This document shows positions 1 through 11,644 of a DNA stretch of 12,202 nt, piece by piece. The stretch is taken from assembly GCA_029857855.1 (NCBI GenBank), contig JAOUGG010000025.1, forward strand, positions 1-12,202, in the 5' to 3' direction. Within the stretch, counting starts at the first letter, position 1, and the number at the start of each line of letters is the position of its first letter. The translations under genes and the position numbers were made by a program. The notes under the pieces are model-generated. The model did not search any database and was not told the origin of the DNA. It saw only the letters and a list, made by a program, of their open reading frames with translations. Source of the DNA: Acidimicrobiia bacterium (GTDB lineage Bacteria; Actinomycetota; Acidimicrobiia; Acidimicrobiales; SZUA-35).

Positions 1-2322
1 GAAGGAAGGCATGATCTCGGTGGTGTCGCCGGTGTCATCATCGATCGGGCTCCGCAGCAGGATGCGGACGGTGGGGTAGTGGCGGATCAGATCGCCCCGC
101 ACCAGCAGCACCAGTGTTTCGTCCTCGCCGCCGGCCAGGTCGGCCAGCTCGAACTTTTCCAGCCATGTCTCCATCGGGTCGATATCGGTCGCGGTGCGGT
201 CGGGTCGCTCCCAGAACCGGCGGAAGGTGGTTGAACCGAGTTGGGCGGGGAACTCACGCCACACCAACTCCTCGGTCATCTCGGTGTTGGCCCCGGCCAG
301 GAAGGAGGCCACGAATTCGGGGTTGGCTATGGCCATACGGACGGCGTTGTCGGGAAAGGCCGATGCCCCTGGCATGAGGAGGTCGGATCCCAGCTCGACC
401 AGTGACCAGACGAGGGCCTCCTCGATCATCGGTCCGATCTTGATCCGACTCGGGAGTTCGTCGCCCGGCACCCCCGTGAGCCCGAAGATTTGGGGGAGTG
501 CCGAGATGCGCCGTTCGGTTCGGGCTCGGGCCGATCCGATCGGATCGATGCCCTGGGTGGCGACGGCGGCCACGTCGTCGAGGCCAAGTGTTTCCGGTGA
601 GCCGAGGACGATGTTGACCGTCGATCGTGATGGAGAGCGCGGTGACAGGAAACCGGACTTGCCTCTCGTTGGCGGCCGCTCGATGATGATGTCGCCCGGT
701 GGCGGTTGATTGCCTGGCGGATCGTCGACTGGTAGGGGCCGGTACTTGTCGCGCACCGGGTGGGCGTGCATGGTCCCGGCGGGCTCCAGCGGCACGCCGA
801 ATTGCAGCTCCGCCCGTTGGGTGGTCGATCCGAAGGTGACCCCGATGGCGGCGTTGACCGTCGCCACATCGACCACCCGTTTGGCCGCCGCCTTGGTGAC
901 GATGCCGCTCGGCCGCATGACCCGCTGGTAGGCCGTGGTGACCAGCGCCGACGGAATCGTGCTGTCGGTCAGCAACACCCGAGGGGGTTCCCCGTCGTCA
1001 TCTCGGAGAAAGCTGAGCTGGTGCCAGGTCAGCGCCACCCGCTGGTGGGAGTCGAGCTTGTCGACACGGGATTTCACTGTGCGTCCGACTTCGGACTGGA
1101 GCCGGGCGAACGACAACTGGCGATTGGTTTCCCGCAGTTCGCCGGCTTGTTGCCAGGCCATGGCCATGAACCGTTCCTGGTTGCGTCGCACGACCAGTGC
1201 GCCGAGTCCGGCGGCGGCCCGCCAGATCGGTTCGACGTTCACCTCTCGAGCCCAACCCTCATCGGGGACGGTGTGACGGCCCAGAGCATAGGCCCCGTGG
1301 AACGGGACGGTAACCACCGGGTCGGGTGCATCGGGCCGCAACTCGGGGCGGATATCACCCTGATTCAACAGCTCGACGACTTCGGCCTCGAAGTGGATTT
1401 TGGCCGACGGCCCCAGTGGCTGAGGTTCGACGCCGACGTCCCAGATGGCCCCGCTGTAGTCGACGACTGTTTCGTCGTCGGGGGTCTCCTTGGGCCATTG
1501 ACCGATCGGCCCGAGATCGTCGACCGCCATCGGGGTGATGCCGAGCCGAAGTTTCGGGTCGTCGATCGGGCCGAGCCGCTCGCACAGTTCCTCGAACGAT
1601 CCGGCCTGCCCGGTGGTGAACGTCCACGATTCGTAGACGGTGAGATCGGCCTGCTCGGCGGTGGACCACGCCGGCTGCAGCATTGTGCCGTCGTTGTCGA
1701 CCTTGAAGGCGTTGACCAGTGCCGCCCGGTACTCGGTGCCCGGCAACAGCCTTCGGGGGCAGACGAGGCGGGCGATCACCGCCCCCGGCTGATCGGCCAC
1801 GGCGGCCGCCACGTCGTCGAGTTCCACTGCCGACTGCACGTGGGCCCAGGCCCACATCTCGGAGGGGTGGGGGAGTTCGGAACCGGCCACGATGAGGCGG
1901 GCGGGCCGATCCTCGGAGCCGGATATGTAGTCGGCCTCGGCCGCCACCACACAGACGAGCACGACCCACGGTCGAAGGAATCCACTCGATCCGGGGCCGG
2001 CCGGGGTCACCACCCAGGGCAGGTCGGGGGTGGCCACCTCGACCAGCGGGAAGTAGCCGTATTCCGCCTCGCCGGCCGATGGTGCCGGGTAGCGGCGGAC
2101 GATCATCGAGGATGAGATACCGCTGACGTGGTCGGCGGGGCGCAGAGCGATCGGAGCCGTTGCCCGTTGGCCGTTGAGGTCGATGTAGGCATCGAGCGGG
2201 GCCGATCGGGGGAGGTCGGACTGTCCGTCGTCGGTTTCGGTGATGGTCAGGGCGATGCCTCGCCTGAGCCAGGGCAGGAAACGCAGGGTTTCCGTTTGCG
2301 GTTCTTTTCGCGGCTCCGGCAT
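1..2322 (-). CDS. Large conserved protein of unknown function, third gene of the operon; 3' end lies outside the window
   Basis: The frame is open from the ATG at 2322 to base 1 with no stop (774 codons read by hand), so the N-terminus is complete and the C-terminus is missing. The start is well supported: GAGGAG lies 6 nt upstream and the ATG is one base after the stop of the preceding gene. Visible landmarks are FLPWLRRG (residues 15-22), CPRRLLPGTEYRAALV (about 188-203), RRNQERFMAMAWQQAGEL (about 379-396), a Pro-rich linker (about 530-567), NTEMTEELVWREFP (about 679-692) followed by FRRFW, and LVRGDLIRHYP (about 740-750). From memory, unverified, this order of motifs belongs to a widespread uncharacterised bacterial family whose members end soon after such a motif, so perhaps a hundred residues are missing. 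No signal peptide or membrane segment is seen; one moderately hydrophobic stretch near 120-140 contains WVVLVCVVAAEA. No catalytic function can be assigned. Gene reality is very likely; function is unknown. Confidence 0.88.
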   Translation of the reverse strand, partial: MPEPRKEPQTETLRFLPWLRRGIALTITETDDGQSDLPRSAPLDAYIDLNGQRATAPIALRPADHVSGISSSMIVRRYPAPSAGEAEYGYFPLVEVATPDLPWVVTPAGPGSSGFLRPWVVLVCVVAAEADYISGSEDRPARLIVAGSELPHPSEMWAWAHVQSAVELDDVAAAVADQPGAVIARLVCPRRLLPGTEYRAALVNAFKVDNDGTMLQPAWSTAEQADLTVYESWTFTTGQAGSFEELCERLGPIDDPKLRLGITPMAVDDLGPIGQWPKETPDDETVVDYSGAIWDVGVEPQPLGPSAKIHFEAEVVELLNQGDIRPELRPDAPDPVVTVPFHGAYALGRHTVPDEGWAREVNVEPIWRAAAGLGALVVRRNQERFMAMAWQQAGELRETNRQLSFARLQSEVGRTVKSRVDKLDSHQRVALTWHQLSFLRDDDGEPPRVLLTDSTIPSALVTTAYQRVMRPSGIVTKAAAKRVVDVATVNAAIGVTFGSTTQRAELQFGVPLEPAGTMHAHPVRDKYRPLPVDDPPGNQPPPGDIIIERPPTRGKSGFLSPRSPSRSTVNIVLGSPETLGLDDVAAVATQGIDPIGSARARTERRISALPQIFGLTGVPGDELPSRIKIGPMIEEALVWSLVELGSDLLMPGASAFPDNAVRMAIANPEFVASFLAGANTEMTEELVWREFPAQLGSTTFRRFWERPDRTATDIDPMETWLEKFELADLAGGEDETLVLLVRGDLIRHYPTVRILLRSPIDDDTGDTTEIMPSF

Positions 2323-2323
2323 C

Positions 2324-5300
2324 TCAGTCTCCTCGTTCCAGGACCGATGTGGCCGGTACCACCACGAACCGCCCTGCGGTCGAGTCGGCTCCGGACCTGA
2401 GGGCGGCGAGTGCGTTGTACTGGTCAACACCGCCGGCCGGAACGTTGTTGCGGTCCAGAATCTGTGTGGCCTCCCAGCCGTTGTCGGCTCGTGCCACGGT
2501 GTAGGTCGTCGGCTCGACCACCAGCAGCGGCTCGAAGCTCGATTTCATCCGGGCCAGCCCGGCTGCGAAGGCACCGGTGCCGATGGAGTTCTCCAGGGTG
2601 CCTTCCTCGTAGTCGGTCGTGACCGAGGATGTACTGGCCTCGACGGGTACGGCGATTTCGTCGCTGCCGAAGGTGACGCCTGCCTTCATCTCCTCGAACG
2701 AACTTCGCGAAAGCCGCTCGGAGGTTCCGAGGTCCTCGAACTGGGCGGGGGCGAACCAGTCGTTGGCGTACGTCCGGTCGCCGTCCACGAATGAGGTGGC
2801 GCCGATCCCGTAGTCGGTCACCGTCAGCAGGTCTTGTCCCGCGGCCGGCACTGCCTGACCGACGAGCTCGAGCGTGCGTTCCAGCGGGGCAACGCTCTGG
2901 CGGGCTTCGAGGTTGTGGTCGGGCCGGATCCAAACGACGTCTCCGGCGCCGTCATCGTCGGCCCCGCCGGCCGAACCTTCGTAGATGAGCCCGGCCGCCA
3001 AGCCGGCGACGGGGGCCGACTCCCGCCAGGCCGAAACCGACTGCAGCGCCGCTATCGCGTCGTCGAGCGGGCGGGCGATCGGTCTCGGCTCGGACCCGGC
3101 ACCCATTCCCACATCGAACGCGAAGTTGACCTTGAGCCCGAAGAACTTGAACGATGCCGTACCCACCGCGGCCCACGGGTCGGGTCCCTCCAGCATGAAC
3201 GTGAGGCTGACCCCCATGAGCTCGCGGTCACCCGAGTAGACCCCGACTCCGGCCGCCATGGAGGCCATGATGCGGAACGGGGAGAACTGCAGCAGCACGT
3301 CGAACGAGAACCAGCCCCGGGCCGAGTAGGTGGCCAACCCCACCTTGACGATGGCCTCCATGTTGACAGCGGAGCCGAACTGCAGGGAGTTCGAGGTGAC
3401 GGCGAAGTAGGACTCCACGCCCACAAAGACGTTGTCGGCCACATCGATGGAGGCGAACATTCGCCGCAGGTCGTGCATGTGGGCTGGAACCACGCTCGGC
3501 GGTTCGAACCCGGGGTGGAAACCGCCGACCGACAGCAGGAAATACGGCTGCCGGCCGACGCTGAGGAACATCGCCATGTCGCCGCCGAGGTCGATGGTCT
3601 CCAGCAGCCGTGAGTCGTACAGCGATGCCGTGAGCGAGAAGGTGCCGGCGGCGATGTCGACCACCCCCAGCGCATCCATGTTGAGGGTGAGCAGCGGTTC
3701 GTCCGGTGTGGGCAGGGTGGCGGCCACCGACCCCATCACCGCGATCAACCCGTCGGGGAAACTGATGACGATGCCCAGCTGGGCGGTGATGCTCTTGGGG
3801 CTGCCCCAGCCGATCTGGATGACCGGGCCGACCACGGTGTTGCCATCGGTGAGCGGGAAGTACTCGTCGATCTGGGCCGCCAGTTCCAGCGAGTTGTTGA
3901 CCGGGTCGTCGGGAAACAGGAGGGCGTCGACTGCCCCTGATCGCAGCCCTGAGGCCAGCGCTTCGGCGTCGAGCGAGCGGTTCAGCGCCAACAGACCGCC
4001 GATACCTTCGAGGGTGAACCCGAAGCCGATGGGAATGCCGGGGAAGGTGGCGGTCAGGCTGGCGTAGAACGCCCAGCCCGACGGGTCGCCGGGAAGGCGG
4101 GTGTCGACGATGACAAACGCGTCGATGCCGACACTGACCACGTCCAGGGTCAGCCCGCCGAGGTATCGCCCGGTGTCCTCGAAGTACTCGACGAAGCCGC
4201 CGCCGGTGATCGTTTCGGTGGTGATCTGGAAATCGATCCGGCTGGGGGGAGCCAACCCGAAGCCGATGCCGAGTGGCCCGAGGCTGCCACCTGATTCGGA
4301 GACGTCGAGGTTCGAACGCAACCCGAAACGGTCGACGCCGACGGCGAAGATCAACAGTTCAGCGGTCAGATCGGCGGTCACGTCCAGGTCGAGGAAGCCG
4401 TCCTGATCGACTCCGGCGGTCAGGTGAAGCACTTCAACGGTGATCGGGCCGATTGTTCGGAACACCGGGATGGTGATGTCGAACCGGGCGCCGCCCTGGA
4501 AGTGGAAGCCGATATCGGATGACCAGCCGATGGTCAGATCGAAGTCGCTTTCGATGTCGCTGTCGGGCAGCACCTGCCGGGCGAACGTGTCGGCGCCCCC
4601 GGTGCCGAGCACCAGCGACAGATCATTGAGGGCGAGAGTGACGTCGACGGTGCCACCGGAGTTGTCCTGTTCGACGGCGGCAGCCAGCTCAATCGAACCG
4701 AGATCCAGTCGGGACCCACCATCGCGTCCGAACAACACCATCTTGGCCCCGTCGGGGTCGATCTTCCGCAGGGTGATGGCGAACCGGAACGCGCCGGAGG
4801 TGTCTCCCGCCACCAGGTCGGCGTACAGGTCGAGGTTCAAGGGCGGGTGAATGATCAGCGCCGGACCGATCCCGGCGTCGAGTTCGGTGTCGATCTCGAG
4901 CGACCATCCCGACCCGAGATCGCGATCGGTCTGCCAGTTCCCGAACGCGTAGGGGACGAGCGCCAGACCGGCACCGTCCGGTGTGCCCGGCAGCAACGGG
5001 GAGACCCCGAGCCCGGCTTCGGCATAGTCGTCGGGCCAGAACCCGAACTGCTCGATCGGGATTCGCAGCTCCTGGGGATCGTCCTCGATCGCAGTTCGGC
5101 CGAGGGCCGCCGCCAGCTCGGGATCCTGGTCCCGGAGTGCGCCCGGCAGGCGAAACGACCGGACCAGACGATCGAGCTGGCCGACCATCATGTCGATGTC
5201 CGGGGCCGCGGTGTCCCAGTCGTAGACGAGGTCGAACAGACTCATCGGATCGCTCAACAGCATGGGAAGCCGATCCCAATGCACGATCCGGAGAACGAAC

Positions 5301-5791
5301 TCGGGCTGGTGGATCGCCGGATTGGCCTCGGTGGGAACCTGCTCGACCACTCCGAGGTTGGCCGCGATGCCGAGAAAACCCGGTCTGCGGCGGCCGAGGT
5401 GGATGATGACCAGGTAGTCGACCAGGCGGCGGACGAATACCTGACGTATGCCGCTCTCGTCGATGGCGTTCGACCCGATCGCCGATTCGATGTCGTCGAG
5501 GAGGTCGGCGGCCGCGGCAACGAGACCGGCCAGATCGTCGAGCAGCCCAATGACGACGTCGACCGGGTCACCGTGGCCGCCTTCGGTGGCCTCGATGGCG
5601 CCCCGGACCTCGTCGACCAGATCACCGATTGCCTGCCAATCGCTGCTCAACTGGCCGATGGCCGAGAACTCCCAACCCAAATCGGCCAGCAGTCCGGTGG
5701 CGGCGTCGACCGAGTCGAGCCGGGACAGCGGAAGGAAGGCCGAGCCGAACTCCTTGATCACCAGGTTGACGGCCGCCATATTCGTGCTCAT
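2324..5791 (-). CDS. DUF6603-domain protein, 1155 residues
   Basis: The start chosen is the ATG at 5791 (MSTNMAAVN), which overlaps the upstream stop as ATGA. An in-frame ATG at 5926 exists, but its extra 45 residues are Arg-rich and lie wholly inside the upstream gene. Residues 1 to about 130 look helical (SAIGQLSSDWQAIGDLVDEV, then LLDDLAGLVAAAADLLDD). A long beta-rich body follows. The central part, about 570-895, matches my recollection of DUF6603: GFGFTLEGIGGLLALNRSLD, ALLFPDDPV, IGWGSPKSITAQLGI, LYDSRLL, SVGGFHPGF, TSNSLQFG and FDVLLQFSPFRI. The C-terminal third has LEARQSVAPLERTLELVG and DWFAPAQFEDL...LSRSSFEEMKAGV, which also recur in this family. The function of DUF6603 is not known to me. 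Alternating hydrophobic beta strands suggest a large repetitive beta structure such as a fibre or barrel-like shell. There is no signal peptide and no transmembrane helix. Translation is probably coupled to both neighbours. Confidence 0.9.
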   Translation of the reverse strand: MSTNMAAVNLVIKEFGSAFLPLSRLDSVDAATGLLADLGWEFSAIGQLSSDWQAIGDLVDEVRGAIEATEGGHGDPVDVVIGLLDDLAGLVAAAADLLDDIESAIGSNAIDESGIRQVFVRRLVDYLVIIHLGRRRPGFLGIAANLGVVEQVPTEANPAIHQPEFVLRIVHWDRLPMLLSDPMSLFDLVYDWDTAAPDIDMMVGQLDRLVRSFRLPGALRDQDPELAAALGRTAIEDDPQELRIPIEQFGFWPDDYAEAGLGVSPLLPGTPDGAGLALVPYAFGNWQTDRDLGSGWSLEIDTELDAGIGPALIIHPPLNLDLYADLVAGDTSGAFRFAITLRKIDPDGAKMVLFGRDGGSRLDLGSIELAAAVEQDNSGGTVDVTLALNDLSLVLGTGGADTFARQVLPDSDIESDFDLTIGWSSDIGFHFQGGARFDITIPVFRTIGPITVEVLHLTAGVDQDGFLDLDVTADLTAELLIFAVGVDRFGLRSNLDVSESGGSLGPLGIGFGLAPPSRIDFQITTETITGGGFVEYFEDTGRYLGGLTLDVVSVGIDAFVIVDTRLPGDPSGWAFYASLTATFPGIPIGFGFTLEGIGGLLALNRSLDAEALASGLRSGAVDALLFPDDPVNNSLELAAQIDEYFPLTDGNTVVGPVIQIGWGSPKSITAQLGIVISFPDGLIAVMGSVAATLPTPDEPLLTLNMDALGVVDIAAGTFSLTASLYDSRLLETIDLGGDMAMFLSVGRQPYFLLSVGGFHPGFEPPSVVPAHMHDLRRMFASIDVADNVFVGVESYFAVTSNSLQFGSAVNMEAIVKVGLATYSARGWFSFDVLLQFSPFRIMASMAAGVGVYSGDRELMGVSLTFMLEGPDPWAAVGTASFKFFGLKVNFAFDVGMGAGSEPRPIARPLDDAIAALQSVSAWRESAPVAGLAAGLIYEGSAGGADDDGAGDVVWIRPDHNLEARQSVAPLERTLELVGQAVPAAGQDLLTVTDYGIGATSFVDGDRTYANDWFAPAQFEDLGTSERLSRSSFEEMKAGVTFGSDEIAVPVEASTSSVTTDYEEGTLENSIGTGAFAAGLARMKSSFEPLLVVEPTTYTVARADNGWEATQILDRNNVPAGGVDQYNALAALRSGADSTAGRFVVVPATSVLERGD
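2329..2334 (-). promoter_or_regulatory. Ribosome binding site of the third operon gene
   Basis: GAGGAG on the minus strand, 6 nt before the ATG at 2322. It lies inside the last codons of the DUF6603 gene. It fixes the start of the downstream gene and implies translation on the same mRNA, with re-initiation or coupling after the TGA at 2324-2326. Confidence 0.75.
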
Positions 5792-8676
5792 GACCTTGGG
5801 GGTGCCGGGGGTAGGTCGGCGTCGACGAAGTGGTTCTTGAACGAGTTTCGAACGGCGCTGAGGGCCTCCACGTCGGGATGGTTGAGTTCGTAGCCTCGAC
5901 TGCCTCGGCCGACGAACTGAGGCCAATCGGTCACTTGCCTGATCGTACGTCTGAGCTCTCCGCCGATGGCGTCGACCTCGTTCTGCAACGCATTGATCAG
6001 CGCCCCCTCGTCCCAGTTGTCGGGGTTGGGGTCAGCCACCGCTGCGGCCCCGGCGGCAGTCACCGCAGCTCGGAGGCGCGCCCCGGCGTACCCCGGCCCG
6101 GGGTCGTCGTCGGGCCCGAGGCTCTCGATCAGGGACCCCGGATCGTAGATGTGCCAGCGATGGAGCATGCCGGCCGCCTTCTCCGAGGTGAACACCTCGC
6201 CGATGGTGGCAGAGCGCCCGTCGATCTGCGGCCCGAACCCGTCGGGAAACGGCGTGTCCCGGACGTCGCGCAACCGGATCCGGGCCATGAACCACATGGC
6301 CCGCTGGAACCCTTCGACGGCCCGCCCGGCCATGGCCCAGCGGTAGGCCCAATGCCAACTCCGGTAGTAATCGAAATCGTATCGATCGGTGGACGTGGTG
6401 GTGTATCGACCGTCGTCGGTTTGGGCCGTCACCATGCTCTTGTATTTGCGGTGCACGTCGTCGAAGAGCGCGCTTCCGCTCCGGTCGGCGCCGTTGATCC
6501 AGGATTCCTCGATCCGAAGACCGAATCGGCCGACCGTCTCGTGGAATGCCGCGCCATCGAAGGCGGCCAAGAAGGCGAGGAACCCGCAAAGTTCCCCTTC
6601 CTCCACGATGCCGGTGCCGGTTTCATACAATCCCAGCGTCCAGTGGGCGGGACCCAGCGACACGTAGGCCCTGTCGTAGCAGTTGACGCTGTCGAAGAAG
6701 CCGAGACACTCGACCTCCGATACGGCTCGAACCACCTTGAAGGTGGCGAGTTGTCCCGGTGACAGATCGGCCAGCGCCACCCCCAGCAGCAGATCCGACA
6801 TGATCTCGCGGGCAGGCCAAACCGACGAATAGACCTTCTTCCACACATCGGAATCGGCGGGCGCTTCGAAATTGAGGTGTGGTCGCGTTGTCGGCCCTCC
6901 GTGACCGCCCGACCCACGGACGTAGCATCCGACGTCGATCAGGTTGCCGTCGTGCAACCTCGCGTCGTCCGATGGCTCGTAGTACCCGCTCAAGTCGAGG
7001 GCGAACATGAGTCTGGTGTCGGCATCGAGGAACGCCGCGACCGTGGCGTCGTCGTGCAGCCAGATGTTCTCGTACTCGCCGATGGGTGACACCGGTGCGG
7101 TGGCCACGCCGGCGGGTGGGCTGCCCGGCGGATCCCAGGTCGTGTCCCAGGCCTCGATCACAACCGGGCAGCGCCATCCTCGCCGCTTCCACAGCTCGAT
7201 CAAGATCCGGGTTCCGATGTTGGCCACGCCCGAGATCGGGCCGCTGTAGGGGTAGAGGTTGAGCACCTGCTCAAGCCGATCGATGTAACGGGGTTCCTCG
7301 TCGGGGGTGGCCGTCTCGGTTGCCAGGAACTGCATACCGGCATAGATCTGGAACTCCCGAATCGCCCACTCGGTGCGCCGCCCGAAGTCGCCGTCAGGGT
7401 TGCCGACACCTCGGAATCCCAGCTCGTTCAGGTCCCACTGGAGGCTGTCGACGTAGGAGCCGGGTACCCCGCCGGCTTCGCCGCCCCACACCCGGCGGTC
7501 GTCGTTGTCGCCGCGCTGCAGGTCGTGGCCGCCGTAGGCGTCGGCGCCGTCCTGCAGCGAGTCGGGAAAGACGCCGACGAGTACCGGCAACCAGATGGTG
7601 CCGGCGGCCGACTTCCCCCATCCGGTCGAAGGCGTGGCACCACCGGTGACGTGGGCTCCGGCGTCGTACTCCGTGGCCAGCGTCACCAAAGCATCCTCGT
7701 CGTCCAGTAGCTCGTCGACCGACAGATCCTGCCAGGCCGGCCAGCGGGCCCGCAGGGCGGCCAGGTAGGCGGCGGCCAGGGCGATGCCGGCCTTGGGGAA
7801 CCGGGCCAGGTTGAACAGATCGGTCTTGTTCTCGACAGGGAGCGCATCGAAGTCGGTCCACAGGAGATGGTCCATCGCCGAGCCGTTGGACCCGTCGGCC
7901 GCCTTCTCCCGCCAGGTGATGTAGGGGTCTCCGTCGAGACCGTCAGGGCCCACCAGCGCGGCCATGTTCGGGGGTCGCCATTGGGCAACGCCGAGCCGGT
8001 CGTCGAGATCGTCGGCCAGGTTGAACCGCCAGGCGCGGTTGATGTCGTCGGCCGCCCACGCCAGTTTCTGGTCTCGGCCCGGCGTCCAGACGGTGAGCCC
8101 GACCTCCTGCTGCTTGGGCGCTTGCATGCAGCCCTGATAGATCACAACGGCCAGGAAGCGGGGCGGCAGGTTGTGCTCGGCCGCCGATTCGTTGATGTAG
8201 CCGCGGAAGTCGCCGGTCACCTCGGCGGTGGTGACCGGATCGCCGGCGGCCAGGGCGTAGAGGGCCTCGTAGCCCGGGATGTAGTTGTGGCCGAACCCGA
8301 ACCCCTCGAACCGGGGGCGAATGTCCTGGAACATGGTCAGTGAGTGCATCACGGCTCCACCCCGGAGCAGCTCAACCGTCACCTCGAGCAGTCCGATCAC
8401 CAGCGGCTGATACGAGGTGACCCCGTCGGTGGTGGTGACGGTGGCGATGGTGGGCGACGAGATGGGATCGAACGTCCACCGGTACTGGTCGATCTGTTCG
8501 TCGGTGGTGACGAACACGGCGTAATCGATCACCGAGGTGATGCCGATCGGGGAACTCAGTGAACTGACGAGGGCGATGTCCTCGCGGTCACCGGCGCCGG
8601 GGATGATCTCGGCCTGACCGAGGTCGGCGGCGCGGAATCCCGCCGGTAGGCGGGATTCGGTGGTACGGACTCCCAT
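5788..8676 (-). CDS. Large protein with a peptidoglycan-binding domain and lysozyme-like regions, first gene of the operon
   Basis: This is 962 residues from the ATG at 8676. Residues about 35-120 look like an Ig/PKD-type beta domain (VFVTTDEQIDQYRWTFDP). Residues about 155-350 recall a lytic-transglycosylase fold: AAEHNLPPRFLAVVIYQG at the position where active enzymes have Glu-Ser, and LATEYDAGA near the usual AYNAG. The expected catalytic Glu is Gly here (residue 182), so this part may be inactive. Residues about 406-448 form a clear peptidoglycan-binding type 1 domain (VDSLQWDLNELGF, DGDFGRRTEWAIREFQ). Residues about 485-840 form a second conserved block: CPVVIEAW, then VVRAVSEVECLGFFDSVN, YDRAYVSLGPAHWTLG and GELCGFLAFL. 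This resembles a lysozyme-like glycosidase, with Glu654 or Glu656 as candidate acid; that is inference. The C-terminus is Pro-rich. There is no signal peptide, so export by the Sec pathway is not evident. The ATG lacks a clear Shine-Dalgarno sequence, and a 7-bp tandem repeat fills that position. Confidence 0.88.
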   Translation of the reverse strand: MGVRTTESRLPAGFRAADLGQAEIIPGAGDREDIALVSSLSSPIGITSVIDYAVFVTTDEQIDQYRWTFDPISSPTIATVTTTDGVTSYQPLVIGLLEVTVELLRGGAVMHSLTMFQDIRPRFEGFGFGHNYIPGYEALYALAAGDPVTTAEVTGDFRGYINESAAEHNLPPRFLAVVIYQGCMQAPKQQEVGLTVWTPGRDQKLAWAADDINRAWRFNLADDLDDRLGVAQWRPPNMAALVGPDGLDGDPYITWREKAADGSNGSAMDHLLWTDFDALPVENKTDLFNLARFPKAGIALAAAYLAALRARWPAWQDLSVDELLDDEDALVTLATEYDAGAHVTGGATPSTGWGKSAAGTIWLPVLVGVFPDSLQDGADAYGGHDLQRGDNDDRRVWGGEAGGVPGSYVDSLQWDLNELGFRGVGNPDGDFGRRTEWAIREFQIYAGMQFLATETATPDEEPRYIDRLEQVLNLYPYSGPISGVANIGTRILIELWKRRGWRCPVVIEAWDTTWDPPGSPPAGVATAPVSPIGEYENIWLHDDATVAAFLDADTRLMFALDLSGYYEPSDDARLHDGNLIDVGCYVRGSGGHGGPTTRPHLNFEAPADSDVWKKVYSSVWPAREIMSDLLLGVALADLSPGQLATFKVVRAVSEVECLGFFDSVNCYDRAYVSLGPAHWTLGLYETGTGIVEEGELCGFLAFLAAFDGAAFHETVGRFGLRIEESWINGADRSGSALFDDVHRKYKSMVTAQTDDGRYTTTSTDRYDFDYYRSWHWAYRWAMAGRAVEGFQRAMWFMARIRLRDVRDTPFPDGFGPQIDGRSATIGEVFTSEKAAGMLHRWHIYDPGSLIESLGPDDDPGPGYAGARLRAAVTAAGAAAVADPNPDNWDEGALINALQNEVDAIGGELRRTIRQVTDWPQFVGRGSRGYELNHPDVEALSAVRNSFKNHFVDADLPPAPPRS
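8635..8658 (-). promoter_or_regulatory. Perfect 10-bp inverted repeat in the first codons of the operon's first gene
   Basis: Arms 8635-8644 and 8649-8658 are exact reverse complements with a 4-nt loop (UACC in the mRNA). The hairpin begins 18 nt after the A of the start codon and covers about codons 7-14. The mRNA part CUACCGGC inside it is also complementary to GCCGGUAG, which occurs three times in the tandem repeat just upstream of the ATG. The hairpin and the leader-repeat pairing are therefore mutually exclusive, and the second would place the AUG in a loop. A role in controlling translation is inferred. Confidence 0.5.
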
Positions 8677-8681
8677 GGTCT

Positions 8682-8723
8682 GCTACCGGCTACCGGCTAC
8701 CGGCTACCTGCTGCCGGCTACCG
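8682..8723. repeat. Tandem heptamer repeat, six copies, in the operon leader
   Basis: On the plus strand the unit is GCTACCG: copies at 8682, 8689, 8696, 8703 (last base T), 8710 (GCTGCCG) and 8717. Four copies are exact and two carry one substitution each. The array ends 5 nt before the ATG at 8676, where a Shine-Dalgarno sequence would be expected. Seven is not a multiple of three, so copy-number changes would shift any reading frame crossing it and would alter leader length and folding. Confidence 0.9.
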
Positions 8724-8799
8724 GTTGGATTGGCGGTGGCGCGACGAGCCGTTGGACGCCTGACCGTTGACAGTGAGCGCCATCGGTTGCCCGTAGCAC
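8704..8799 (-). other. Possible short leader ORF with a very strong Shine-Dalgarno sequence
   Basis: GGAGGAGGG (8805-8813) lies 5 nt before a GTG at 8799, far better than anything before the ATG at 8676. The GTG frame gives 31 codons (VLRATDGAHC...) and ends at a TAG inside the heptamer array. It is in the same frame as the 962-residue gene but separated from it by two in-frame TAGs in the repeat. A second short frame starts at the ATG at 8783 (MALTVNGQAS..., 21 residues, stop at 8718-8720) and has the higher third-position GC (18 of 21 codons by hand) but no good ribosome site. Either could be a leader peptide or the eroded N-terminus of the downstream gene. Coding status is uncertain. Confidence 0.3.
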
Positions 8800-8926: not shown

Positions 8927-10135
8927 TCACGGCAGCGACACGTAGCCGTGCTTCGCCTTCCAGATGAAGTACTTCTCGAAGGCGATCTTCATGGCGTGGG
9001 CCTGCGGGCCGGGGATCATCACGCTGTGCTTGCGGGGCGGGAGCATCTTGTCGGCCAGGATGATCACGCCGTTGTTGCCGGCGTCCATCACACAGATGGC
9101 TCCGATGTCGCCGAACGTCTTGTGGACGTCCGGCTCCTCGCCCCGGATCTGGGCGGCGACATTCTTGGCCGCCACGTGGGCCTGCTGCTCGGTGGGGAAC
9201 CCGGTCTTCGGGATGCCCACCGGGTTGGCCGTGTGCCAAGGCACGTCAACCGCGGCGGCGATGCCGACCGCATACACGTTGTCGTAGGGTTCGGTCTGGT
9301 AGGTGTCGCGGACCGGGACATAGCCCTTGTCGTCGCTGATCTCGGTGGCCTTGCGCACCACGTCCTGACCGACGAATGGCGGGATGATCATGGCGTAGTT
9401 GAAATCGAGTTTCCGGTCGTCGGCCAGCACGAGCCGCCCCTCGTCGACGTACGACATGCCGGTGTCGAGCACCGCCGAGATCTTCTCCTTCTTGAGGAAC
9501 ATCTCGAGCAGGGTCTCGCCGTGTTTTAGGCCGCCGATTCCGAAGTGGCCGAGTTCCGGCTCGGGCGAGACGTACGTCATCGGCACCTGCTTCTTGATGC
9601 CGTTCTTGCGGAGCTGGTGGCTCACGTTGAACAGGAACTCGTACGCGGCACCGAAACAGCCGGCGCCCTGGGTGGCGCCGATCACGATCGGGCCCGGGTT
9701 CTCGAGGAACCGCTTCCAGCCCTCGCCGGCCTTGATCGCCTCCTCGAGGGTGGTGATGTTGTAGGCGTTGCCGTTGGGCCCGAGGCCGGGAACGACATCG
9801 TGGTTGTTCTGGTAGCCGGTGGCGATGATCAGATAGTCGTAGCCGTAGGATCCCTGCGGTGTCAGCACCTGCTGCTGATCGAGCAGCAGTTCGGTGGCCG
9901 GTGCGTGCACGAAGTCCACATCGTGGTTCTCGAAGGTCGGGGCTACGGGGAAGGTGATGTCGTCCGGCGTGCGCTTCCCGAAGGGCAGCCAGATCAGTGA
10001 TGGATTGAACAGAAAGCGATCGGAGGGCGAGATGACCGTGACGTCGACATCGCCGTCGAGCTCGTTCTTCACCGAGATGGCCGCCGTGAGGCCACCGAAA
10101 TTGCTCCCGAGCACCACAACCTTTTTTCGTGACAT
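8927..10135 (-). CDS. sqr: Sulfide:quinone oxidoreductase-type FAD/NAD(P)-binding flavoprotein
   Basis: This 402-residue protein probably oxidises sulfide to sulfane sulfur and passes electrons through FAD to membrane quinone, acting at the inner face of the membrane. Domains: an N-terminal Rossmann FAD motif (VVVLGSNFGGLTAAI, residues 6-20), the second nucleotide-binding strand ending DYLIIATGY (100-108), QGAGCFGAAYEFLFN (156-170) with Cys160, the FAD-contacting DNVYAVGIAA (285-294), and IGAICVMDAGNNG (344-356) with Cys348. These are the only two cysteines and correspond to the redox pair conserved in the SQR family; the third cysteine of some members (near residue 128) is absent here. The C-terminal HAMKIAFEKYFIWK looks like the amphipathic membrane-anchoring helix. 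Start: GAGGAG lies 7 nt before the ATG. It has no signal peptide, which argues against a periplasmic flavocytochrome c subunit. A related type II NADH dehydrogenase-like activity is the main alternative. Confidence 0.8.
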   Translation of the reverse strand: MSRKKVVVLGSNFGGLTAAISVKNELDGDVDVTVISPSDRFLFNPSLIWLPFGKRTPDDITFPVAPTFENHDVDFVHAPATELLLDQQQVLTPQGSYGYDYLIIATGYQNNHDVVPGLGPNGNAYNITTLEEAIKAGEGWKRFLENPGPIVIGATQGAGCFGAAYEFLFNVSHQLRKNGIKKQVPMTYVSPEPELGHFGIGGLKHGETLLEMFLKKEKISAVLDTGMSYVDEGRLVLADDRKLDFNYAMIIPPFVGQDVVRKATEISDDKGYVPVRDTYQTEPYDNVYAVGIAAAVDVPWHTANPVGIPKTGFPTEQQAHVAAKNVAAQIRGEEPDVHKTFGDIGAICVMDAGNNGVIILADKMLPPRKHSVMIPGPQAHAMKIAFEKYFIWKAKHGYVSLP

Positions 10136-10165: not shown

Positions 10166-10408
10166 TCATTGTCGTCGGTCACCGATTGAGCCTCTAGGGC
10201 CAAAGGGCTCTGCCCGGTGACGGCTACCGAGCCGTCGGGCTCGAGCAACACGATGTCGGCCACCGATCGTGATCGTGTCGCCCGTCGCCGATCGGCCGGG
10301 ATCGTGGTCGACGATTCTCCCGCCGGCGACGGTGAGCGGGGTCGGTCCTCCGCCACCGAACCGGGCCCCATCTCGGATGATCAACGCCGACGTGGGAACG
10401 CTCGTCAT
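10166..10408 (-). other. Coding-like stretch with an apparent frame switch; possible gene remnant upstream of the oxidoreductase gene
   Basis: An 80-codon frame from the ATG at 10408 begins MTSVPTSALIIRDGARF and has G/C at the third position in about 80% of codons down to about 10262. It then turns Arg-rich, with about 45% third-position GC. In the next frame the sequence from about 10260 (ADIVLLEPDGSVAVTGQSPL) again has about 80%. This is what a single-base insertion near GGTGGCC (about 10258-10264) would produce. The second frame runs without a stop across the start of the oxidoreductase gene. The opening loosely recalls the N-terminus of amidohydrolases (LIIRDGA...LTVAGGRIV), but the match is too short to name. 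It occupies most of the 342-base gap 10136-10477. It may be a remnant, a small real gene or chance. Confidence 0.3.
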
Positions 10409-10448
10409 GGCAACCAATGCCAACTGCAGGCGAAAACGGAGATTCTCG

Positions 10449-10462
10449 AACCGGTACCGGTT
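10449..10462. promoter_or_regulatory. Perfect 14-bp palindrome, candidate operator for the transporter gene
   Basis: AACCGGTACCGGTT is an exact palindrome ending 15 nt before the GTG start at 10478. It sits where the spacer of the transporter promoter would be, immediately before a possible -10 box. A dimeric repressor site is the simplest reading; no regulator gene is visible in the window. Confidence 0.4.
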
Positions 10463-10463
10463 G

Positions 10464-10469
10464 TACCAT
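10464..10469 (+). promoter_or_regulatory. Possible -10 box for a leaderless transporter transcript
   Basis: TACCAT (TANNNT) ends 8 nt before the GTG at 10478, so transcription would begin at or next to the start codon. No convincing Shine-Dalgarno or -35 element is present. Leaderless mRNAs are common in actinobacteria; the assignment is otherwise weak. Confidence 0.25.
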
Positions 10470-10477
10470 GGCGCCGA

Positions 10478-11644
10478 GTGAACGACATTCGATCGGTGCT
10501 CATCTACAGCACCTACTTCGTCCTCACCGCGGCTCTCGGCGTGGTTTTCGTGCTTCTCGAGGATCTGCAGGCCCGCCACGGCTTGGCCGACTGGGAGGTC
10601 GGCCTGATTGCCGGCACCGGTTTCGGTGCGGCGCTGGTCGTACAGACGATGCTGTCACCCCTCGCCGACCGTGGGGTGAAGGTTCCGCTATCCATCGTCG
10701 CCCTCGGTGCCGGGGTTCTTGGCCCCGTCGGTTTGGCCTACGGATCGTCCACGCTGGTTCTTGCCGGCAGTCGTGGCTTGTCGGGCATCGGGCTTGGCCT
10801 GTTCGCCCTGCTGGCCCGCAAGGCGCTGATCGGCCTCGACGCCACCGGCGGTGGGGCGAAACTCGGGATGCTGCTGTCGGTGGCGGTCGCCGGCTTCATC
10901 TCCGGCCCGTTCATCGGCTACCTCTTCGAGCCGTGGGGATTCGAGGCCCCGTTTCTCGCAGTGTCCGCTGCGCTGATCGTGGTCGGAGCGCCGGCGACGA
11001 TGGCCATCCTCCGCTCCGAGTTCGCCACGACGCCGGTCGACTACAGCGTGATCGGTCAGCTCCTGCGGCGCCCGCGGATCCAGTCCGCCCTGCTGGTGCA
11101 GTGCATCGTGCTGGGCTACGTCGGCGTCTTCGACTCCATTGTCGACCGGTTCCTCACCGATCTCGGCGCCTCCACCGGCGACGTCGCCCGGGCCATCATG
11201 GTCGTCGGCTTCCCGATGCTGATCCTCCCCCGCATCGCCGGCAACTGGGCCGAGGCGCTCGGCGGGACGAGGGTCATGCTGCCGGCGCTGTTGTGTCTGG
11301 TGCCGATCATGGTCGGCTATTCGCTGGTGCCGACGGCCCTGTGGTTCGCCGCCGTCGGGCTTCTGCACGGTTCGGCCGAGTCGTTCGCGTCGATCAGCTC
11401 CCAGGTGTTGGTGCTCGAGGTGACCGGAGCGGAGAAGGCGGCGGTCGGCACCGGTCTGCTCGACGCCGCCGGGCTCATCTCCGCTGCGGTGGCCGCCGGA
11501 CTGGCCCCGCTCATCTACGGGGCATCCGGCAAGGGTGTTTTCGTCATCACCGCTTCTGCCGGGGCGATGTTTGCCGGGCTGGCCCTCTGGCGCATCCGTG
11601 ATGCCGCGGAACTCGATCGGGTCGCCGCAGCCGCCCCCGTCTGA
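10478..11644 (+). CDS. Major facilitator superfamily (MFS) transporter
   Basis: This 388-residue integral membrane protein has about twelve hydrophobic helices, the normal size for the family. Starting at the GTG at 10478 gives VNDIRSVLIYSTYFVLTAAL, with helix 1 at once. A longer in-frame start at 10217 would add 87 polar, Arg-rich residues with no resemblance to an MFS N-terminus and is rejected; a GTG at 10496 is a close alternative. The loop between helices 2 and 3 carries SPLADRGVKVPLS, the MFS motif A (G-x-L-A-D-R-x-G-R/K type). Helix 4 has GSRGLSGIGLGLFALLARK. After the mid-protein loop (SEFATTPVDYSVIGQLLRRP), the second half has six more helices including GLLHGSAESFASISSQVL. Such proteins move small solutes or drugs by proton coupling; the substrate cannot be read from the sequence. 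It is transcribed divergently from the oxidoreductase gene, with a palindrome just before its start. Confidence 0.85.
   Translation: MNDIRSVLIYSTYFVLTAALGVVFVLLEDLQARHGLADWEVGLIAGTGFGAALVVQTMLSPLADRGVKVPLSIVALGAGVLGPVGLAYGSSTLVLAGSRGLSGIGLGLFALLARKALIGLDATGGGAKLGMLLSVAVAGFISGPFIGYLFEPWGFEAPFLAVSAALIVVGAPATMAILRSEFATTPVDYSVIGQLLRRPRIQSALLVQCIVLGYVGVFDSIVDRFLTDLGASTGDVARAIMVVGFPMLILPRIAGNWAEALGGTRVMLPALLCLVPIMVGYSLVPTALWFAAVGLLHGSAESFASISSQVLVLEVTGAEKAAVGTGLLDAAGLISAAVAAGLAPLIYGASGKGVFVITASAGAMFAGLALWRIRDAAELDRVAAAAPV

Follow-up and report, generated by a model that had tools for sequence, protein, structure and literature searches.

The 12,202-nucleotide window analysed here is the whole of contig JAOUGG010000025.1 (C286), from the draft genome of an Acidimicrobiia bacterium (GCA_029857855.1; Actinomycetota) that comprises 978 contigs and is 81% complete. 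Three genes, p1, p2 and p3, lie in tandem on its minus strand, and our analysis showed that they belong to two distinct elements. The genes p2 and p3 are the first half of a four-gene core, p2-p3-p4-p5, which keeps one order across diverse bacteria and in haloarchaea. In contrast, p1 is not a core gene: it occupies a variable enzyme slot that lies before p2.

The first-pass annotation of the window had described three coupled genes, and their place and sizes, the ATGA overlap and the single-base gap between p2 and p3 (the p3 start codon lies one base past the p2 stop) are borne out (Table 1). It had also named p2 a DUF6603 protein, and p2 is indeed a clear member of that family (PF20248, a 'Family of unknown function' in Pfam), scoring 327 bits against a curated cut-off of 27 and covering positions 3-501 of the 502-position profile. 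The peptidoglycan-binding domain attributed to p1 is likewise present, but the 'lysozyme-like regions' did not hold up: PG_binding_1 is the sole Pfam match of p1 at E ≤ 1, and weak matches to a PHROGs endolysin and to NCBIfam span the peptidoglycan-binding stretch only. No catalytic domain of p1 was found in Pfam, PHROGs or NCBIfam, and p3 returned zero matches at E ≤ 1 in the same three collections. Elsewhere in this genome, a partial p4 and a partial p5, overlapping each other by 4 bases, lie on a separate contig of 3745 bases; therefore, the left edge of the window, where p3 runs off, is most likely an assembly break.

Table 1. Positions of the genes, domains and other features of the window
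Feature	Position	Strand	Description
p1	5788..8676	-	ATG start, 962 residues; occupant of the variable enzyme slot
p2	2324..5791	-	ATG start at 5791, 1155 residues; DUF6603 protein, first conserved-core gene
p3	1..2322	-	ATG start at 2322, at least 774 residues, off contig at base 1; second conserved-core gene
ATGA overlap, p1 stop and p2 start	5788..5791	-	4 bp
p1 N-terminal module, residues 1-375	7552..8676	-	counterpart in the Desulfotruncus slot protein (L067)
p1 PG_binding_1 domain, residues 407-448	7333..7458	-	Pfam, E 4.1e-9
p1 peptidoglycan-binding and conserved C-terminal module, residues 381-921	5914..7536	-	slot-protein comparison
p2 predicted N-terminal helices, residues 4-145	5357..5782	-	AlphaFold2 model
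p2 predicted giant amphipathic beta-meander, residues 240-896	3104..5074	-	AlphaFold2 model
p2 DUF6603 domain match, residues 445-1024	2720..4459	-	Pfam, E 2.1e-97
Short direct repeats of the GTAGCCG kind	about 8679..8730		immediately 5' of the p1 start codon
Flavoprotein oxidoreductase (Pyr_redox_2)	8927..10135	-	ordinary neighbour
Major facilitator transporter (MFS_1)	10217..11644	+	ordinary neighbour

A conserved four-gene core

We scanned an alignment of p3 against a genome collection of 84,980 species and recovered 397 loci, the best 80 of which were retrieved together with flanks of up to 10 kb each; the core frequencies given below are those of this chosen set. Together with the window, eight of the 13 plasmid p3 records and two further DUF6603 loci, these make up 91 loci, and one plasmid record with DUF6603 only was also opened. 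Genes were called with a codon-usage script trained on the core genes.

Among the 91 loci, p3 is present in 89, p2 in 86, p4 in 82 and p5 in 76, with p2 and p3 together in 85. The first-pass annotation had raised the possibility that the window's trio is conserved, to be refuted if the three families were rarely neighbours in other genomes. For p2-p3 this is not the case: we found both p3 and DUF6603, side by side, in all 13 plasmid p3 records (and in 13 of the 14 plasmid DUF6603 records), and both genes occur in 85 of the 89 loci with p3, the other four having p3 at a contig end or no more than 450 bases from one. The p2-p3 pair of the proposed trio is thus kept, but the real unit is p2-p3-p4-p5, with p1 being just one of many occupants of the slot.

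Every locus that shows the four genes has them on a single strand as p2-p3-p4-p5, except the broken L049, which has a decayed look, with no p4 found and p3 in pieces. The nine loci from which p4 is absent comprise seven that are at contig ends by their coordinates, L049, and L004, whose DUF6603 match is weak only. Median spacings between called neighbours are -0.5 nucleotides (nt) for p2-p3, 6 nt for p3-p4 and 4.5 nt for p4-p5, and 55 of the 88 neighbouring p2-p3 pairs are no more than 10 nt apart (these and the slot counts below leave out five loci, L094 and L096-L099). The genes are presumably co-transcribed. The middle half of the called open reading frames (ORFs) spans 996-1170 residues for p2, 905-1056 for p3, 1456-1728 for p4 and 534-607 for p5, and the core gene set codes for roughly 4000 residues.

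The bacterial hosts include Pseudomonadota, Actinomycetota, Bacteroidota, Bacillota, Chloroflexota, Myxococcota, Nitrospirota, Acidobacteriota, Verrucomicrobiota and Cyanobacteriota, and the core is also found in haloarchaea. The system is sporadic: any DUF6603 match was found in three of 61 near genomes, the window's own included, and in none of 11 other genomes of the same genus. Across 396 genomes of the phylum, DUF6603 is present in 12, p5 in 10 and both in eight, the p5 count coming from three scored candidates per genome, so that p5 may be missed in some. In nine of the 12 DUF6603 genomes p3 adjoins DUF6603, in one there is a weak p3 match (28 bits), and in two no p3 was found beside DUF6603. 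In the two genomes with p5 alone, the contigs that carry it measure 3170 and 4865 bases.

Several loci depart from the common arrangement. In a subtype comprising L052, L053, L057 and L074, p2 is about 1500-1600 residues long and an extra gene of 370-401 residues lies between p2 and p3; L016 carries a second DUF6603 gene (590-2524) several kb upstream of the core. Other DUF6603 members occur in other gene contexts (L096, L097): in L096 (3367-12698), a weak metallo-beta-lactamase-like gene lies upstream, and the DUF6603 neighbour resembles the N-terminal third of p3. A record labelled 'Bacteriophage' (MT835531.1, L111) contains the end of p2 and p3-p5 among other ORFs that look bacterial and is probably not a phage. 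A 4 kb IMG/VR contig (L110) has, at its end (3927-4052), a 42-residue match to the p5 N-terminus, the remaining ORFs resembling replication genes by eye.

The variable slot upstream of the core

We defined a slot gene as one coding for at least 120 residues on the same strand and no more than 400 nt before p2. The upstream side could be seen in 89 loci; by this rule, 72 of these have a slot gene, which in 48 of the 72 lies within 10 nt of p2. A Pfam scan (E ≤ 0.001, some matches being below the curated cut-off) covered 65 of the 72 proteins, leaving out seven of at least 1400 residues, and our tally draws on 25 of the 50 families matched. Among the matches listed, PhoD is the commonest (21), followed by M64 (10), S8 and PLD (three each), and PG_binding, M23 and DUF2515 (two each), with tyrosinase, Het-C, galactose-oxidase-like and WD40 domains found once each. 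Scans of single slot proteins additionally found one that is beta-lactamase-like, as well as DyP and OmpA matches that lie below cut-off. Enzymes of the slot types are mostly known to act outside the cytoplasm. In L089, the slot is empty and an S8 peptidase gene follows p5 with a 4-base overlap.

The p1 protein is itself modular. Its residues 1-375 share 24% identity with the N-terminus of the Desulfotruncus slot protein, the C-terminal part of which is an M23 peptidase domain, and much of residues 381-921 recurs in seven slot proteins of actinobacteria, where it is fused C-terminally to a PhoD-like protein. Its C-terminal module has conserved acidic and aromatic positions.

We then compared slot content with the history of the core on a FastTree tree of 91 p3 proteins, which gave warnings of long branches. 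Slot classes were assigned by hand from Pfam and BLAST clusters to 58 of the 91 rows (22 with no slot and 11 'other' being dropped). The 15 classes require at least 24 changes on this tree, the minimum possible being 14, against 30 to 36 in 200 label shuffles. The 'S64' class rests on a below-cut-off match and is tied to the S8 proteins by a C-terminal module; hence, the count was repeated with merged classes, giving 24 changes in 14 classes (shuffles 28-36) and 21 in 13 classes (shuffles 24-29). By these comparisons, the slot class is partly inherited and often replaced. Related cores with different occupants illustrate the latter: p3 identity is 64% between L060 (S64-like) and L027 (tyrosinase), 59% between L053 (S8) and L052 (M64), and 60% between the window (peptidoglycan-binding) and Pelagibius L005 (OmpA-like, weak), this alphaproteobacterial core being the window's nearest in the set.

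The C-terminal module, of about 125 residues, is common to seven slot proteins, two of the S8 type (L057, L080) and five trypsin-like (L028, L029, L047, L060, L066). In L060 (4632-5048, 138 residues) and L028 (3794-4090, 98 residues) it also forms a small gene of its own, upstream of the slot gene. A profile of the module matched these seven among the 72 slot proteins and, in 760 further called genes, those two; the 72 slot proteins in reversed form gave no match. It is possible that it serves as a docking part. A module shared by two enzyme types, together with one constant gene set that has a variable enzyme directly upstream, would also fit an enzyme nanocompartment with p2-p5 as the shell and the product of the slot gene as packaged cargo, bearing a C-terminal targeting module in some cases; the weak, below-cut-off DyP peroxidase match in the L058 slot points the same way. 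Nevertheless, four giant subunits take the place of one repeated shell protein, and some p5 proteins bear outward-binding modules, which makes this explanation very unlikely in our estimate.

Predicted structure of p2 and p3

AlphaFold2 models p2 as an amphipathic beta-meander of alternating hydropathy, with 33 strands of at least eight residues. Long runs of amphipathic beta-strands are likewise seen in SprA (the type 9 secretion translocon) and other giant outer-membrane barrels (LptD, PapC), and the structural matches of the p2 model include 8gl8 (E 2.6e-4), LptDE (E 6.9e-6) and PapC (E 1.2e-5). However, p2 differs from outer-membrane barrels in that none of the 50 matches listed exceeds a TM-score of 0.15 over the query, a Sec-type signal is found by a hydropathy rule in just one of 98 p2 ORFs, and the protein is also present in Gram-positives and archaea. 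For p3, there was no close match among the solved chains aligned.

A giant amphipathic sheet could belong to a lipoprotein-like or envelope-coat assembly, with p2 wrapping lipid in the manner of the apolipoprotein B beta-belt and the enzyme riding on the particle or coat. The beta-belt aligns with the p2 model at a root-mean-square deviation (rmsd) of 9.0 Å and 7% identity, and we consider such an assembly quite unlikely.

Cellular location and competing explanations

Sec-type signals were sought by a simple hydropathy rule on the first 45 residues, which is crude and not a trained predictor. By this rule, Sec-type N-termini are found in one of 98 p2, none of 90 p3, none of 88 p4, none of 74 p5 and none of 72 slot proteins; the N-terminus of p1 in the window is not hydrophobic either, in agreement with the first-pass annotation, which had remarked on the absence of such signals. 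A Tat-type motif was detected by pattern in a single one of the 72 slot proteins, the PhoD of L073 (3121-6375). Some p5 proteins contain PA14 (plus a weak F5/8C match) or TIG domains and some have WD40 modules, and p4 and p5 of haloarchaea bear the annotations 'BGTF surface domain' and 'lamin tail domain'.

It is because of the p5 modules and the surface-type annotations in haloarchaea that we place the putative complex outside. Our favoured reading, which we hold tentatively, is that the core forms a complex that presents the slot enzyme, or delivers it, outside the cytoplasm, either at the cell envelope or farther out. The gene architecture itself is modular and widespread: a constant p2-p3-p4-p5 core is encoded with one interchangeable enzyme, whose gene usually comes right before p2, and here the peptidoglycan-binding p1 takes that place. 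In the proposed complex, the p2 protein might supply a giant amphipathic beta-sheet in contact with lipid or membrane, p3 might act as a scaffold, and p4 and p5 might be the outward parts, sometimes binding glycans. In a stronger form, which we regard as doubtful, the core would be a new class of delivery machine in bacteria and archaea, in which a p2 membrane beta-structure of at least 30 strands passes or presents a folded enzyme that is swapped via the upstream gene.

Several observations weigh against the favoured reading. No secretion route was seen and Sec-type signals are lacking, although exporters were not searched for. Het-C, WD40 and DUF2515 in the slot do not obviously mark extracellular enzymes, our rule leaves 17 of 89 loci without a slot gene, and 65 of 72 slot proteins lack the shared C-terminal module. 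The gene after p5 varies between loci (25 BLAST clusters for 27 genes), and three of the 12 DUF6603 genomes of the phylum are without the cassette or have a weak p3 match only. Finally, the p2 model has a predicted TM-score (pTM) of 0.54, its matches have the low TM-scores noted above, and other structural matches are mostly at rmsd 6-14 Å.

The lack of Sec-type signals would also suit an intracellular defence or cell-suicide system, wherein infection, once sensed by the core, leads it to release or activate a swappable toxic enzyme (a protease, phospholipase or peptidoglycan hydrolase) within the cell. Swappable hydrolases, the sporadic distribution and the presence of the cassette on plasmids, two of which have recombinases or integrases close by, are in line with this, as are the Het-C domain in one slot and the caspase-domain gene of L058 (20370-22178), which lies 21 nt downstream of p5. 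NLR-like (Avs) antiphage systems similarly pair a constant core with a variable hydrolase. Unlike these, the core has no NTPase domain in any p2-p5 protein scanned with Pfam (the L060 p5 gave one weak, below-cut-off helix-hairpin-helix match), and searches with p1, p2 and the L005 p3-p5 returned no PADLOC matches at E ≤ 1, which weakens the case for defence. Moreover, peptidoglycan-binding, tyrosinase, galactose oxidase and PhoD proteins would be odd intracellular effectors, and one p5 variant has PA14. On balance, a defence role seems unlikely.

The first-pass annotation had instead inferred from these proteins, which lack Sec-type signals and include a cell-wall module, a phage-tail-like particle or its cargo. 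Extracellular contractile injection systems resemble the present core in being multi-gene, occurring in bacteria and archaea and having a variable partner; two papers (PMC8213781, PMC11297309) describe them from environmental bacteria and archaea, with variable toxins. Sheath matches were found in two and tube matches in three of nine genomes with DUF6603 and p3, the window's own included. However, neither sheath (PF04984) nor tube (PF06841) was found in two core-bearing genomes that are single contigs and 97% and 100% complete, so a contractile tail seems dispensable. The window's own genome has no match to either, which at 81% completeness is not conclusive alone. Further, p2 matches none of 50,697 phage records, and p1-p3 have no PHROGs match except at the p1 peptidoglycan-binding stretch. 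It is hence highly improbable that these proteins serve a contractile injection system or tailocin as its cargo or as a component, and the phage-tail-like particle is not borne out.

Implications

We found no known system with this core. The first-pass annotation had anticipated a poorly described system, and no paper naming DUF6603 or PF20248 turned up in the collection of 5.39 million papers searched, papers outside it not being covered. That so large a gene set retains a single order in many phyla and in two domains of life, and is headed by an exchangeable enzyme, points to an undescribed machine. If the core exports, displays or delivers enzymes that have no signal peptides, as in the reading we favour, it would constitute a new route of enzyme traffic in cells with or without an outer membrane, and the natural swapping of enzymes would reveal how the cargo is selected. 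Should the core serve defence or the envelope instead, the system would still be of a new and testable kind.
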